Source of the DNA: Phascolarctobacterium sp.
GTDB taxonomy: Bacteria > Bacillota > Negativicutes > Acidaminococcales > Acidaminococcaceae
Direction of reading: 5' to 3'
NCBI GenBank assembly: GCA_021201965.1
Contig: JAJQDY010000015.1
Span: 1 to 34,402 of the forward strand
Length of the DNA: 34,402 nt
The position numbers and the translations under genes were made by a program. Shown here in pieces: positions 9,774 through 29,710 of the stretch (position 1 is the first letter of the stretch; every line of letters begins with the position of its first letter). The notes under the pieces were generated by a model. It did no database searches, had not been told where the DNA came from, and saw nothing but the letters and a program-made list of their open reading frames with translations.

Positions 9774-11420
9774 ATGGCATTTGAAAACATTAAAGCTGGG
9801 TTTGACAAGTATACTGCTGATGTAGAAGCTAAACTTGCAAAAACCCCTGAACGCGTAAACATTGCAGCTAACAGGCTGTACACCCCGCTGGATCTTGGTG
9901 AAGGCTTTGATTACACTGAGAAACTTGGATTCCCTGGTGAGTATCCTTATACTCGTGGAGTACAGCCCACCATGTATCGCGGCCGTTTCTGGACCATGCG
10001 TATGTACGCTGGTTTCTCCACAGCCGAAGAATCCAACAAACGTTACCGTTACCTGTTAGCTAATGGCGGCAGCGGCCTGTCCTGCGCATTTGACCTCCCA
10101 ACCCAGATCGGTTATGATTCTACCGATGCTATGGCTGAAGGCGAAGTTGGCAAAGTAGGCGTTGCTATTGACTCTTTGGCTGACATGGAAATTCTTTTCG
10201 ATCAGATTCCTCTCGATAAGGTTTCCACTTCTATGACTATCAATGCTCCTGCATCTGTGCTGCTCGCTATGTACATTGCAGTTGCTGAGAAACAGGGAAT
10301 TACCCCTGATAAGCTGCGCGGAACCATTCAGAATGATATTCTGAAAGAATACGCAGCTCGCGGAACGTACATTTTCCCACCGACTCCGTCCATGCGTCTG
10401 ATTACCGACATTTTTGAATATTGCTCCAAAAATGTTCCGCAATGGAATACGATTTCCATTTCCGGTTATCATATCCGTGAAGCAGGTTCTACCGCTTCTC
10501 AGGAAATTGCATTTACCATCGCTGATGGTATTGCTTATGTAGAAGCAGCTATTAAAGCTGGTATGGACGTTGACGCATTTGCTGGCCGTTTGTCTTTCTT
10601 CTGGAATGCTCATAACAACGTACTCGAGGAAGTTGCTAAATTCCGTGCTTCACGCCGCATATGGGCCAAAGTTATGAAAGAACGTTTCGGTGCTAAGAAA
10701 CCGAAATCCCAGATGCTCCGTGTGCATAGCCAGACTGCAGGTTCAATGCTGACCGCTCAGCAGCCGAATAACAATATCGTTCGTGTTGCTCTGCAGACCG
10801 CAGCTGCTGTAATGGGCGGCACCCAGTCCTTACACACCAATTCCAAAGACGAAGCATTAGCTCTGCCGACTGAAGAATCCGTAGCCATCGCTCTGCGTAC
10901 CCAGCAGATTGTTGCCTATGAATCCGGTTTGGCTGATACTGTTGATCCGTTGGGCGGTTCCTACTATGTAGAAGCTCTTACCGATAAGATCGAAGCTGAA
11001 GCTTGGGATTACATTAAGAAAATTGATGAACTTGGCGGAGCCCCTGAAGCAATCGCTAAAGGTTACATCCAAAAAGAGATTCAGGATTCTGCTTACAAAT
11101 GGCAGATGGAAATTGAAAAAAATGAACGTATCATCGTTGGTGTTAACAAATTCCAGCAGGAAGAAGAAGCACCGAAAAACCTGCTGCGCGTAGACACTTC
11201 TGTAGGCAGACAGCAGGCAGATAAAGTTAATAAGCTGAAAGCTAGCCGTGATAATGCCAAAGTTAAAGCAGCTCTGGCAGCTCTGGAAGCCGGCTGCGCA
11301 AGTGATACAAACTTGATGCCTCTGATCCTTGACGCTGTTCGCGCATATGCAACCGAAGGTGAAATCTGCGGCGTTATGAGAAAGGTATTCGGCGAATATC
11401 AGCCTCATACAAGCCTTTAA
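9774..11420 (+). CDS. mcmA1: methylmalonyl-CoA mutase, catalytic (large) chain of the split type
   Basis: A 548-aa TIM-barrel chain that interconverts succinyl-CoA and (R)-methylmalonyl-CoA using adenosylcobalamin. It lacks a B12-binding domain, which is the next gene, as in archaeal and Negativicute split mutases. The N-terminal signature [19 protein letters not shown] is present with the following [13 protein letters not shown]. Substrate-specificity positions favour a true methylmalonyl-CoA mutase: the tyrosine in PTMY and the arginine after [12 protein letters not shown], where isobutyryl-CoA mutases differ. The frame extends upstream, but the strong AAGGAGG (9759-9765) fixes ATG 9774. 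Codons here are rich in C-ending forms, suggesting high expression. Confidence 0.95.
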
Positions 11421-24378: not shown

Positions 24379-24412
24379 AAACGGGCTTCTCTTACGAGCG
24401 CCCGTTTTTTTA
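24379..24412 (+). terminator. intrinsic terminator (attenuator) before aroF
   Basis: AAACGGGC (24379-24386) pairs perfectly with GCCCGTTT (24400-24407), with an inner CTC/GAG stem around TTAC, followed by a run of T to about 24411. It sits 25 bases after the leader-peptide stop and about 44 bases before the aroF start. A preceding TCTGT/ACAGA stem (about 24354-24379) adds structure. Confidence 0.88.
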
Positions 24413-24455
24413 TTTTCCGTGTCAACATAAAGAAAGAAAAAAGGAGAGGTAAATT

Positions 24456-25469
24456 ATGGTAATTGTATTCAAACCAGGAGCACCAGAGGAAGCTAAAACA
24501 AGGGTAAAGAATAACCTTAAAAATCAGGGCTTCCAAATCAATGAAATTAATGGCGTAAATATGACAATTTTCGGTATCATTGGTGATACTAGCAGTCTTG
24601 ATATCAACTTACTGCGCGTCGATGATTTCGTGGAAAAAGTCATGCGCGTACAGGAACCTTTTAAACGCGCCAACCGCATGTTTCATCCGGAGGACAGTAT
24701 CATTGATGTGGATGGTATAAAATTCGGCGGGCAAAAAATTCAGGTTATTGCGGGACCTTGTTCCGTGGAAAGCATGGAACAGGTTACCAATGTGGCAAAG
24801 TCCGTCAGGGAGTCAGGCGCAACGCTTTTGCGTGGTGGTGCATTTAAACCGCGCACTTCACCTTATTCTTTCCAGGGACTGAAAGAACTGGGCATAGATT
24901 ACCTGAAGGCGGCAAAAGCTGAAACCGGATTACCTATTGTTACTGAAATAATGTCGGCAGACAAAATCGACCGCTTTGTGGAAGACGTGGATCTGATTCA
25001 GGTGGGTGCACGCAATATGCAGAACTTCGAATTACTGAAGGAGCTCGGCAAGACCAGTAAACCAGTTCTTTTAAAACGCGGGTTATCTGCGACAATAGAA
25101 GAATGGATTATGTCAGCTGAATATATTATGGCTGGCGGTAATGAAAACGTAATTTTGTGTGAGCGCGGAATACGTACATTTGAACATTATACACGTAACA
25201 CATTAGATTTAAGTGCTATTCCTGTAATAAAAAAACTTAGCTATCTTCCGATAATTGTAGATCCAAGTCATGCGGCCGGTATGTGGTGGATGGTAGAACC
25301 ATTGGCAAAAGCTGCCGTAGCTGCAGGAGCAGACGGCCTTTTGATTGAAGTGCATAATGATCCGGAACACGCATTATCTGATGGAGCACAATCCTTGAAA
25401 CCGGAACGCTTTGAGAAGCTAATGAAAGAATTACATGGAATTGCAAAAATTATAGGACGCTATTTGTAA
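24456..25469 (+). CDS. aroF: 3-deoxy-7-phosphoheptulonate (DAHP) synthase, type I-beta
   Basis: A 337-aa enzyme that condenses phosphoenolpyruvate and erythrose 4-phosphate, the first step of aromatic synthesis. The N-terminal 70-80 residues form a ferredoxin-like regulatory domain as in Thermotoga maritima DAHPS, the domain linked to Phe/Tyr feedback there. The barrel has GPCSVES (100-106), LRGGAFKPRTSPYSFQG (125-141), QVGARNMQNFELLKELG, LLKRG and IVDPSHAAG. All four metal ligands are present at the same numbers as in the T. maritima enzyme: C102, H272, E298, D309. ATG 24456 has AGGAGAGG upstream. It is the first enzyme gene after the attenuator. Confidence 0.96.
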   Translation: MVIVFKPGAPEEAKTRVKNNLKNQGFQINEINGVNMTIFGIIGDTSSLDINLLRVDDFVEKVMRVQEPFKRANRMFHPEDSIIDVDGIKFGGQKIQVIAGPCSVESMEQVTNVAKSVRESGATLLRGGAFKPRTSPYSFQGLKELGIDYLKAAKAETGLPIVTEIMSADKIDRFVEDVDLIQVGARNMQNFELLKELGKTSKPVLLKRGLSATIEEWIMSAEYIMAGGNENVILCERGIRTFEHYTRNTLDLSAIPVIKKLSYLPIIVDPSHAAGMWWMVEPLAKAAVAAGADGLLIEVHNDPEHALSDGAQSLKPERFEKLMKELHGIAKIIGRYL

Positions 25470-25522
25470 ATTAAAATTAATATTTAAAGTAGCATGCAGG
25501 CTGCTCAGAGGGGGTGGTTTCC

Positions 25523-26380
25523 TTGGAAAGTAATTTTAAAAGCGGCGTCAGCGAGAAAATTGATACAGTAGTTCCGGCCGAAACAGCAGGATCATTTAAG
25601 TATGTAGGGCGCATGCTCCGCCTAGAGGGAAGTGTTGTTAATGCCGGGGAAATTGAAATAGGAGGCCGTAAACTTCATATCATTGTAAGTGCTATGTCTT
25701 TAGAAAGTGCCGTTCAGGCGGTTGATTTGGCACATACCATTAAATCTGCCGGTGCGTCGATGCTCAGCAACAGGGAGTTTAAACCAATTCCTTATATAAA
25801 TCCTGATCAGATGGAGAGAGAGACGGCATGGTTCTTAGATGCTGGGAAAGCAATAGGAATACCATTTATAGCTGAAGTAACAGCTATGAAAAATATTAAA
25901 AAACTGGCAAGACAAGCAGATATCCTGCAGGTTAGCGGGCGTGATATGCAGAATTTTGAATTGCTTAAAGCATTAGGAAAAGAAAATCGGCCGGTAATTT
26001 TAAAGCGGGGATCAGGAGCGACAATAGAAGAATGGATTTTGGCAGCCGAATATATTATGGCTGGCGGCAATAAAAATGTAGTTTTGTGTGCTGGTGCTAT
26101 AGAAAGTTTTGAGAAATATACAGACAACATGACCATGGATTTGAGCGCCATAATAGCTGTGAAAATGTTAAGTCATCTTCCGGTAATTATGGATCTCAGA
26201 CAGGATGTGGAAAAGCTATGGATGATTAGTTCCTTAGCTAAAGCTGCCATAGCTGCAGGTGCTGACGGATTGATGCTGGAAGTAGGCAATGATTCGGGGC
26301 AGGTACTTACAGGAAAGGGATTCCTGGAACTTATGAATGAACTTAGAACAATTGCTGACAGCATGGGCAGGGAAATGTAG
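25523..26380 (+). CDS. degenerate DAHP synthase paralogue, probable pseudoenzyme
   Basis: A 285-aa intact ORF clearly homologous along its length to the preceding DAHP synthase (shared DMQNFELLKALGK, ATIEEWILAAEYIMAGGNKN, LAKAAIAAGADGL) but stripped of catalytic residues. GPCSVES has become SAMSLES (C102 to M58). LRGGAFKPRTSP has become LSNREFKPIPYI, losing both arginines. DPSHAAG has become DLRQDVE (H272 to Q227), and the D309 position is not Asp. Only the Glu ligand (E253) remains. The N-terminal ferredoxin-like domain is replaced by about 25 unrelated residues. TTG 25523 is chosen because GAGGGGGTG (25508-25516) fits it; GTG 25514 is an alternative. It may be a regulatory partner of AroF or have a new function. 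No frameshift or stop is seen, which suggests selection. Confidence 0.85.
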   Translation: MESNFKSGVSEKIDTVVPAETAGSFKYVGRMLRLEGSVVNAGEIEIGGRKLHIIVSAMSLESAVQAVDLAHTIKSAGASMLSNREFKPIPYINPDQMERETAWFLDAGKAIGIPFIAEVTAMKNIKKLARQADILQVSGRDMQNFELLKALGKENRPVILKRGSGATIEEWILAAEYIMAGGNKNVVLCAGAIESFEKYTDNMTMDLSAIIAVKMLSHLPVIMDLRQDVEKLWMISSLAKAAIAAGADGLMLEVGNDSGQVLTGKGFLELMNELRTIADSMGREM

Positions 26381-26473: not shown

Positions 26474-27346
26474 TTGACAACTGGTTTTAAAAGCACCGAC
26501 TGGAAAAATCTTAATTTTGCAATAGTTGGGTTAGGGTTGATTGGCGGATCCTTTGCCAAAGCTTTGCGGCGTTTACATGTGCGGAGCATTATTGGAATTG
26601 ATATTGATGATAATGTCTTAACTGCGGCGAAGAATCAGGGAATTATAGATGTGCCGTTAAAAGTTGCCGGAGAAGAAATAAGACAGGCAGATGTGGTCAT
26701 TTGCGCTTTATATCCTGAAGCCGTTATCAAATTTGTGAAAGATAGTATTGGCTTTTTGAAAGAAGGAGTTTTATTAACTGATGTTTCTGGTATAAAAAAG
26801 AATTTACCTTTTGAAGTACAGTTATTACTGCGTCCAGGAATGGAATTCATTTCTGGGCATCCTATGGCAGGACGCCAGGGCAGTGGCTTGGATATGTCTG
26901 ATGGAACAATCTTTCAAGGAGCTAATTACATAGTGATACCTGAAAAACATAACAGCGAAGAGGTAATTAAATGGCTTGAGACCCTTGCCATGGCTTTGGG
27001 CTGTAAGCATACAACAAGAATTTCTCCTGAAGAGCACGACAGTATTATTGCTTATACCAGTAATTTGCCACATATAGCGGCAGTTGCGTTGATAGACAGC
27101 GATTCTTTCAGTGAGAAAACTAAATATTTTATAGCGGGCAGCTTCAGGGATGGGACCAGGGTAGCGGATATTAACGAAGAACTATGGAGCAGCTTATTCT
27201 TGGCTAACAAGGACCGAGTGGCCGACGAAGTAGATAAATACATGGAACAGCTGCAACTCTGGAGCATTGCTTTGAGGGCAGGCGATATAGATTCCTTGAA
27301 AGATTTCATGAGAAAAGCAGCTACAAGAAGAAAGGAACTTTACTAA
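26474..27346 (+). CDS. tyrA: prephenate dehydrogenase
   Basis: A 290-aa NAD(P)-dependent enzyme of the tyrosine branch. It has a Rossmann start IVGLGLIGGSFAKAL (about residues 17-31), LTDVSGIKK, the GHPMAGRQGSG segment and EEHDSIIAYTSNLPHI with the catalytic-region histidines. There is no C-terminal ACT domain. The start is placed at TTG 26474 because AGAGGTGAT lies five to six bases before it. The in-frame ATG 26453 has no good site. The last base of its stop is the first base of aroB (TAATG), so the genes are coupled. An arogenate preference cannot be ruled out. Confidence 0.92.
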   Translation: MTTGFKSTDWKNLNFAIVGLGLIGGSFAKALRRLHVRSIIGIDIDDNVLTAAKNQGIIDVPLKVAGEEIRQADVVICALYPEAVIKFVKDSIGFLKEGVLLTDVSGIKKNLPFEVQLLLRPGMEFISGHPMAGRQGSGLDMSDGTIFQGANYIVIPEKHNSEEVIKWLETLAMALGCKHTTRISPEEHDSIIAYTSNLPHIAAVALIDSDSFSEKTKYFIAGSFRDGTRVADINEELWSSLFLANKDRVADEVDKYMEQLQLWSIALRAGDIDSLKDFMRKAATRRKELY

Positions 27347-28410
27347 TGCAGACCATTCATGTTGATTTGGGAAGCCATGCCTATGATGTAGAAATTGGTA
27401 ATGGAATTCTGTCACAGGTAGGAGCAAAACTTAGGGTATTGTTGCCTGGTGTCTGCAAGGTTGCCATCATAAGCGACAGTAATGTTGCTCCGTTATATGC
27501 TGCCCAATTACATGACAGTCTTGCGGTCGCTGGCTTACCGTCTGAATTAATTGTAATAGAGGCTGGCGAACAAAGTAAGAATATGCAGGTATTAAGCGAC
27601 GTTTTAGAAAAAATTGCCGTGGCTGGACTTAGTCGCAGCGATGTGCTAGTAACTTTGGGCGGCGGCGTAGTCGGCGATTTGGGAGGATTTGCAGCGGCTA
27701 GTTATATGCGCGGTATTGCTTTTGTACAGGTGCCAACTTCCTTACTAGCGCAGATAGACAGCAGCGTGGGCGGTAAAGTAGCAGTGGATTTAAAAAGCGG
27801 TAAAAATCTGGCAGGGGCCTTTTATCAGCCCAAAGCCGTGTTTATTGATACAGAACTTTTGCAATCTCTGCCGTTGCGTTTTTTACATGACGGGCTGGCA
27901 GAGGCCATAAAATATGGATGTATTAAAGACAAGGATTTGTTTATCAAGTTGGCAGGATATGTTGATGGCGCAGAGTTGCTGGATGATGCGGAATATATAG
28001 TTGCTCGCTGCTGTGAAATCAAAGCGCGCATAATTGAGCAGGATGAGTTTGACATGGGATTAAGGGCACTGCTAAATTTCGGTCATACCATAGGACATGC
28101 CGTCGAGCAGTATTACAGTTATGGTTATTATACCCATGGGGAAGGTGTTGCCATAGGCATGTATCAACTTACAAGACGTACGGAAGAAATGGGGCTTACG
28201 CTAATAGGTACAGCAGCCAAAATTGCAGAGGTTCTGCAAAAATATAATCTGCCAATGGAGGCAGATGTGGAAAAAAGAGTTTTGCTGGCCACTATGGAAA
28301 GGGATAAGAAGAAAAATGGCAACAGCATTACTCTGGTTATTTTGAATGATCTTGGTAGCGGAAAACTGCAGAAAATATACTGGCAGGATATAACGGAGTA
28401 TTTGGGGTAG
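27346..28410 (+). CDS. aroB: 3-dehydroquinate synthase
   Basis: A 354-aa NAD- and metal-dependent enzyme for the second step of the shikimate pathway. The NAD-binding GGGVVGDLGGF lies at residues 105-115, followed by QVPTSLLAQIDSSVGGKVAVDL (read in parts), the metal/active-site segments DGLAEAIKYG and LLNFGHTIGHAVE with its histidines, and the HGEGVAIGM motif. The length is standard. The ATG overlaps the tyrA stop by one base, and aroA starts four bases after its stop. Confidence 0.97.
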   Translation: MQTIHVDLGSHAYDVEIGNGILSQVGAKLRVLLPGVCKVAIISDSNVAPLYAAQLHDSLAVAGLPSELIVIEAGEQSKNMQVLSDVLEKIAVAGLSRSDVLVTLGGGVVGDLGGFAAASYMRGIAFVQVPTSLLAQIDSSVGGKVAVDLKSGKNLAGAFYQPKAVFIDTELLQSLPLRFLHDGLAEAIKYGCIKDKDLFIKLAGYVDGAELLDDAEYIVARCCEIKARIIEQDEFDMGLRALLNFGHTIGHAVEQYYSYGYYTHGEGVAIGMYQLTRRTEEMGLTLIGTAAKIAEVLQKYNLPMEADVEKRVLLATMERDKKKNGNSITLVILNDLGSGKLQKIYWQDITEYLG

Positions 28411-28414
28411 AAGA

Positions 28415-29710
28415 ATGAAAAAGATCCGCATCATTCCGGCTAAATTAAAGGGTACAATATGCGTGCCGTCTTCCAAAAGCATGGGACATAGGGAAATAAT
28501 CTGTGCCGGCTTAGCAGCAGGTATGGGCATTATTGATAATATTAGCATGTCCAAGGACATCGAAGCAACTATCCGTTGCTTGCGGGCTCTGGGTGTACAG
28601 GTTGATGACATGGTAGGAAAGATTCCCGGGCGCAGTGCACTGAAAATAACTGGCAGTGGCAGATTATATAAGGCGGAAGATGTAGCTGATTGCGGTGAAT
28701 CAGGTTCAACATTGCGTTTTTTTATTCCTCTAGGAATGCTGCTGAATGAGCCGTTTACCTTCAGCGGACACGGTAAGCTGGTAAGTCGCCCTTTGCAGGC
28801 GTATTACGACATTTTTGACAGTCAAGGACTGGAATATTCTTTAAAGGACGGTCAGCTACCTCTGACGATTAACGGGAGGTTAAAGGCAGGTACTTATAAA
28901 TTACCGGGAAATGTGAGTAGCCAGTTTGTCAGTGGCCTGCTCTTTGCACTGCCACTACTGGAAGGAGACTCAATAATTGAGATTACATCACATTTGGAGT
29001 CATCAGCTTATGTGGATATGACCCTGAGCTGTTTGAATAAGTATGGTGTTAAGGTAAAAAATAACGGACACCGCAGTTATGAGATAAAAGGCGGACAGCA
29101 CTATATACCACAAGATAGCTATGTGGAAGGTGACTGGTCACAGGCGGCATTTTGGCTGGTAGGTGGAAGTATGGGAGATTCCGTTACCTGCAAGGGCATG
29201 GATTTTAAGTCTTTGCAAGGTGATAAGGCTATAGTGGAAATTATGCAGTGCATGGAAAGTCAATTTACATTTGATGTGAGTGGAATTACTGCTTGCGGAT
29301 CTCACACCAAAGCTGCTATAATTGATGGCTCTGGATGTCCTGATATTATTCCCGTATTGGCAACCTTAGCGGCGGTAAGCGAAGGAACTACGGAAATAAT
29401 TAATGCCGGTCGGTTGCGAATCAAGGAATGTGACAGACTTTCGGCCACGACTGACGGACTGAACAGGCTCGGTGGGAAAGTGACAGAATTACAGGATGGC
29501 CTGCACATAGAAGGTTGCCCTAGTGGGTTGTCTGGTGGGGTTGAAGTGGATGCGTGGAATGATCACCGCATTGCGATGAGTCTGGCCATAGTGGCACAAA
29601 AATGCAAGGAACCGATAATTCTGACCGGGGGAGACAGTGTGCAGAAGTCGTATCCGGATTTCTGGAAGGATTATATAGCAACAGGCGGAAGAATAGAGGT
29701 GCTGGCGTGA
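28415..29710 (+). CDS. aroA: 5-enolpyruvylshikimate-3-phosphate synthase
   Basis: A 431-aa enzyme that joins phosphoenolpyruvate to shikimate 3-phosphate. The two-domain signatures are present: SSKSMGHREI near the N-terminus (Lys of SKS and the following Arg), GESGSTLRFFIPL near 92-104, GNVSSQFVSGLLFALPLL, DWSQAAFWL, RLRIKECDRL (the RxKExDR motif) and DHRIAMSLAI. The serine/glycine pattern GESGSTLR differs from class I NAGTAMRPL, so it resembles class II-like enzymes. The ribosome site is weak (about four bases after aroB), implying coupling. It ends in a GTGA overlap with aroC. Confidence 0.96.
   Translation: MKKIRIIPAKLKGTICVPSSKSMGHREIICAGLAAGMGIIDNISMSKDIEATIRCLRALGVQVDDMVGKIPGRSALKITGSGRLYKAEDVADCGESGSTLRFFIPLGMLLNEPFTFSGHGKLVSRPLQAYYDIFDSQGLEYSLKDGQLPLTINGRLKAGTYKLPGNVSSQFVSGLLFALPLLEGDSIIEITSHLESSAYVDMTLSCLNKYGVKVKNNGHRSYEIKGGQHYIPQDSYVEGDWSQAAFWLVGGSMGDSVTCKGMDFKSLQGDKAIVEIMQCMESQFTFDVSGITACGSHTKAAIIDGSGCPDIIPVLATLAAVSEGTTEIINAGRLRIKECDRLSATTDGLNRLGGKVTELQDGLHIEGCPSGLSGGVEVDAWNDHRIAMSLAIVAQKCKEPIILTGGDSVQKSYPDFWKDYIATGGRIEVLA

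Follow-up and report, generated by a model that had tools for sequence, protein, structure and literature searches.

A catalytically dead DAHP synthase paralogue, predicted from its residues, is under purifying selection beside the active aroF gene in Phascolarctobacterium

DAHP synthase controls the flux into the aromatic amino acids and serves as a model for the gain and loss of regulatory domains. The closest described relatives of the protein reported here, which we call pseudo-AroF, are the type I-beta DAHP synthases (PF00793/TIGR01361; T. maritima 1RZM, P. furiosus 4C1K). Pseudo-AroF shares their barrel family and elements of their dimer face, but it lacks C102, H272, R126, R133, T134 and R237 and scores under the NCBIfam DAHP synthase cut-offs (209.7 bits for TIGR01361, where 267.75 are required). 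The type I-beta enzymes of P. furiosus and A. pernix likewise consist of the barrel only, with no FL regulatory domain. However, those enzymes are active, whereas pseudo-AroF has lost catalytic residues and sits at the position of an FL-containing copy in sister genera.

Dead paralogues that activate or stabilize their active sisters are already known, and act as partner subunits in trypanosomatid DHS (PMC3663545), in the AdoMetDC prozyme (PMC5201418) and, as a barrel pseudoenzyme, in PDX1.2 (PMC6829848). In trypanosomatid DHS (DHSp) and the AdoMetDC prozyme, as with pseudo-AroF, a dead paralogue is kept beside an active one, but these are eukaryotic systems from other enzyme families in which hetero-oligomerization is proven, while for pseudo-AroF it is proposed. 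PDX1.2 of eudicots assembles with its catalytic paralogue as we propose for pseudo-AroF but, unlike it, belongs to a different barrel family and is stress-induced. Hetero-oligomeric activation of DAHP synthase has not been reported (PMC12202928), and a literature search, with most subscription papers outside its reach, found no pseudo-DAHP synthase. A dead DAHP synthase twin that is under selection and is a likely partner subunit is an arrangement unreported for this enzyme.

The window, by which we mean the whole 34,402-nt stretch of the Phascolarctobacterium sp. genome (G000) that was analyzed, contains an aromatic biosynthesis cluster in the order aroF - paralogue - tyrA - aroB - aroA - aroC - pheA - aroE - aroK, where pheA was named from its chorismate mutase domain and the remaining operon genes by inspecting their translations. 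The first gene, aroF (24456..25469, + strand), encodes a 337-aa DAHP synthase of type I-beta that has the full catalytic set. Profile searches identified its FL regulatory domain (PF18152, 7.4e-20) as well as its barrel (PF00793, 4.4e-79). The third PF00793 match in the genome is KdsA, as judged from its own sequence and its kds-type neighbors, and the genome yielded no DAHP synthase of type II, so AroF is the only intact DAHP synthase found in this 96%-complete assembly. Just 5' of aroF, at 24379-24413 of the window, lies an inverted repeat with a run of Ts behind it (AAACGGGC...GCGCCCGTTTTTTT), which is also present in the second species of the genus (G027) and is a candidate terminator of the upstream cluster or attenuator; comparison of the window with Rfam gave no match, this repeat included.

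The paralogue, pseudo-aroF (25523..26380, + strand), is an open frame of 285 codons that begins 54 nt after aroF in the same direction, and no terminator-like site was seen on the + strand between the two genes. Its TTG start is preceded by an A/G-rich ribosome-binding region that we read from the sequence (AGAGGGGG, 25506..25522, + strand). Both start and ribosome-binding site are conserved in the orthologue of G027, which has AGGAG at the equivalent place. The frame is intact, as a preliminary description of this DNA had stated. Directly 3' follow tyrA, aroB and aroA (26474..29710, + strand), which come in identical order after the aroF pair of sister genera. Pseudo-AroF is 44% identical to the adjacent AroF and matches the barrel alone (DAHP_synth_1, PF00793, 1.3e-34). 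The idea in the preliminary description that the paralogue might act in place of an N-terminal domain missing from AroF does not fit this arrangement, as AroF has its FL domain and it is the paralogue that lacks one.

Most of the active site is gone from pseudo-AroF. Residue numbers are those of T. maritima, to which AroF aligns without gaps, and for most of these residues we follow the functional annotation in PMC6362186. Compared with AroF and other family members, the pseudo-AroFs of the two species have C102 replaced by M/V, R126 by S, G127 by N/C, G128 by R, S135 by I, G184 by S/N, E236-R237 by A-G and H272 by Q/S, and R133 and T134 are deleted. K131, Q182, R186, K207 and E298 are retained (5/16 active-site residues in both proteins), and the losses are common to both species. 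The loop around D309 is about 7 residues shorter, and D309 cannot be placed in it with certainty. Pseudo-AroF keeps the homology to the DAHP_synth_1 barrel without the complete set of four metal ligands of an active type I-beta enzyme (C102, H272, E298 and D309) and without an intact RGG..KPRTS motif for binding PEP and E4P (substitutions at R126 and G128, deletion of RT). In an alignment of about 135 DAHP synthases, drawn from the family and from 80 genome contigs, the catalytic set is missing solely in pseudo-AroF and its orthologue; one other sequence, from Atribacterota, lacks four of the checked positions. The preliminary description had reported the metal ligands lost except the Glu, and the arginines of LRGG and KPRTSP lost as well. 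The arginines are indeed gone (R126 to S, R133 deleted), as are C102 and H272, and E298 is kept, with D309 not placeable. Its wording that only the Glu remains holds for the metal site but not for the PEP site, part of which survives (K131, R186, K207 and Q182).

Pseudo-aroF is nevertheless under purifying selection. Between the two species, both represented by fragmented assemblies, its dN/dS is 0.16 (omega 0.159) at a dS of about 0.9, and omega = 1 is rejected (2dlnL 95.5). For the identical species pair, omega is 0.035 for aroF, 0.121 for tyrA and 0.110 for aroB, which places pseudo-aroF close to tyrA and aroB and above aroF. Neutral evolution over the observed synonymous distance would be expected to introduce ~13 in-frame stops, of which none is seen, and in a neutral simulation 0/2000 copies stayed open at that distance. 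The omega together with this simulation speaks for rejecting a recent pseudogene. Frameshifts in relatives and a dN/dS near 1, the signs of decay that the preliminary description had proposed looking for, were not found, and its reading of a pseudoenzyme under selection is borne out by the orthologue in the sister species and the omega of 0.16. Pseudo-AroF shows the marks of a functional pseudoenzyme, namely the loss of catalytic residues, purifying selection and presence in more than one species.

The orthologue in G027 is 74% identical and likewise lies between aroF and tyrA. No other orthologue turned up elsewhere in the order (63 genomes), in a 300-genome sample of the class or in the top 80 of a genome-contig scan, and conservation in more than one species is thus seen in G000 and G027 only. 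In eight further genera of the family this place is occupied by an intact aroF-aroF' tandem, both copies full-length with the catalytic set and the second copy before tyrA (e.g. L037, L041, L043, L048, L049, L052, L054 and L059). From their sequences these pairs are predicted to be active and are possibly differently regulated isoenzymes. The pseudo-copy sits at the second position of the pair. In the gene tree the two pseudo-AroFs form a clade whose branch measures 6.4 changes per site; this long branch prevents the parent copy from being read from the tree, which leaves the second-copy position in the operon as the sole guide. The simplest history starts from an old tandem pair, the second copy of which turned into a pseudoenzyme in this genus only.

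Other irregular aroF copies were also observed. In G027, an 81-nt relic of an aroF 3' end lies 5' of aroF (L034:204-284) and is 81% identical to the intact end (1273-1353); no such relic was seen in the window. A genome of the same order (G062) has three tandem aroF copies on the - strand of L156 (4587-5591, 6724-7735 and 8115-8754), one intact, one frameshifted near its 3' end and one full of stops. The barrels of the first two copies are nearly identical while their FL domains differ, a barrel-wide homogenization that suggests gene conversion between the copies. The only aroF found in another, 99%-complete genome (G003, L158, 6095-6628) is without about residues 122-295, reflecting either assembly collapse or loss of DAHP synthase.

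What pseudo-AroF has kept is unevenly distributed over the barrel. In P. gingivalis, the barrel-barrel dimer interface is formed by the beta2-alpha2, beta4-alpha4, beta5-alpha5 and beta6-alpha6 loops and helix alpha5, and corresponds to the P. furiosus AB interface (PMC12202928). We mapped this interface onto AroF by motif rather than by structure, and element boundaries were likewise set by motif. On this mapping, both pseudo-AroFs have preserved 20/21 of the family-invariant residues that lie in alpha4, the beta5-alpha5 loop and alpha5, compared with 59/116 over the remainder of the barrel (Fisher p=7e-5). The retained parts, namely the beta4-alpha4 loop with helix alpha4 (GRDMQNFELLKALGKE, 25940..25987, + strand) and the beta5-alpha5 loop with helix alpha5 (KRGSGATIEEWILAAEYIMAGGNK, 26003..26074, + strand), would therefore include much of a dimerization face, although its beta2-alpha2 part is damaged.

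Selection may not be the sole cause of this likeness to AroF. Across codons 156-200 (beta5 to beta6), synonymous divergence between aroF and its paralogue is 0.8 to 1.2, whereas elsewhere it exceeds 2.3 or is saturated, and in the window identical amino acids share identical codons at 20/29 sites as opposed to 40/89 elsewhere (p=0.02), an excess that is weaker in the other comparisons. Given this pattern, old gene conversion from aroF may explain part of the alpha5 similarity. The alpha4 segment is highly diverged from aroF at synonymous sites, so recent gene conversion is not the cause of its retention, nor does gene conversion account for dN being low across both of these segments when the two pseudo-AroFs are compared. 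For the ATIEEWILAAEYIMAGGN block, which the preliminary description had singled out as well kept, old gene conversion may be part of the cause. A further constrained segment is beta3 with its following loop and helix (GIPFIAEVTAMKNIKKLARQADIL, 25853..25924, + strand). Over its beta3 stretch, GIPFIAEVTAM, the two species agree at 11/11 positions but match the AroF consensus at only 3/11, and omega is about 0.03 over codons 111-130. In addition, 61 sites carry a residue that is common to both pseudo-AroFs and absent from 53 AroF sequences. Beta3 and these sites look like new, paralogue-specific constraint rather than a leftover.

We hypothesize that pseudo-AroF associates with AroF as a non-catalytic subunit and alters the activity or feedback of that enzyme, a reading we hold with about even confidence. 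Descended from the second gene of a tandem aroF pair, pseudo-AroF would have shed both the active site and the FL (feedback) domain and would have been retained since its barrel dimer face still permits assembly, most likely with the AroF encoded 54 nt upstream. Loops that build the dimer interface contribute to the active site as well (PMC12202928), so an inactive barrel could sustain or modulate an active one. Within a mixed dimer or tetramer, dimer contacts that shape the active-site loops of AroF would come from the pseudo-subunit. It would bring no FL partner, which would tune the activity, stability or feedback of AroF, and weaker inhibition is the probable outcome since AroF in such an assembly would itself be left without an FL partner. 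In T. maritima, the FL partner is said, from the work of Shumilin in 2004 and later studies, to help form the tyrosine site. Support for mixed oligomers is indirect and comes from the selectively kept dimer face; dimerization with AroF, its stoichiometry and the direction of the effect are what we infer. Against AroF as the partner, a homodimer would keep the dimer face equally well, R133 and T134 of the E4P loop, which are also partner contacts, are lost, and pseudo-aroF occurs in only two genomes. No obvious compensating change was seen in AroF itself.

The main rival to this reading, which we regard as somewhat unlikely, is a repurposed barrel that acts alone, either as a homodimeric sensor of a new phosphorylated ligand or as a new enzyme. 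The paralogue-specific constraint described above keeps it alive, above all the 61 specific residues and the strongly conserved beta3 at the barrel mouth, and part of the PEP site is kept; any new catalysis could draw on the surviving K131, R186, K207 and E298 together with the new R128, E129 and R271. However, the metal site is gone, and several parts of the mouth (beta1, beta2, beta7 and, most of all, beta8-alpha8) rank with the less conserved regions between the two species, which would be unusual around an active or binding site under selection. Metal-independent KDO8P synthases have Asn in place of the metal-binding Cys, and together with the retention of E298, K131, R186 and K207 this precedent could favor a still-working DAHP synthase with altered metal or substrate chemistry. 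We consider this the most improbable of the alternatives, as most metal ligands, the E4P-binding RT pair, R126 and R237 are lost together and the activity is already supplied by AroF.

The location of pseudo-aroF between aroF and tyrA in one cluster, along with known DAHP synthase-chorismate mutase assemblies (PMC12202928), would also be consistent with a non-catalytic partner of TyrA, AroB or PheA instead of AroF. This seems very improbable to us because the surface that has been kept is the one through which barrels dimerize, and the partner known for it is a second DAHP synthase barrel. A slow pseudogenization, in which a surplus tandem copy is being lost and is intact by chance, would account for the loss of the FL domain and for an omega above that of aroF, and in this order redundant aroF copies are indeed seen to decay, as the frameshifted and stop-filled copies of G062 and the aroF-end relic of G027 illustrate. 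Rejection of omega = 1, the absence of the ~13 stops expected under neutrality and the start and ribosome-binding site kept in both species make it very improbable here.

A second, putatively partly inactivated DAHP synthase was observed in an Atribacterota MAG, where an intact-frame DAHP synthase paralogue (L094:5791-6828, + strand) carries C102S, K131Q, P132S and R133L, and the same aro cluster holds a complete copy (9955-10989). The four changes are also present in a 96%-identical relative (L164, G301), with a dN/dS of 0.14 to 0.18, though divergence is low; the full catalytic set is present in relatives that are more distant. The variant retains the FL domain, R126, R237, H272, E298 and D309 and is of independent origin. 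From its sequence, it looks like an independent, earlier-stage, partly dead DAHP synthase. More tentatively, and at less than even confidence, the FL-less dead barrel may represent the dedicated regulatory subunit of a hetero-oligomeric DAHP synthase, serving the only active enzyme, and this arrangement at the entry to aromatic biosynthesis may have arisen more than once and, in another form, in Atribacterota too. If true, this locus would offer a direct test case for regulation by a pseudo-subunit in bacteria, with the intact tandem pairs of sister genera providing the 'before' state for comparison.
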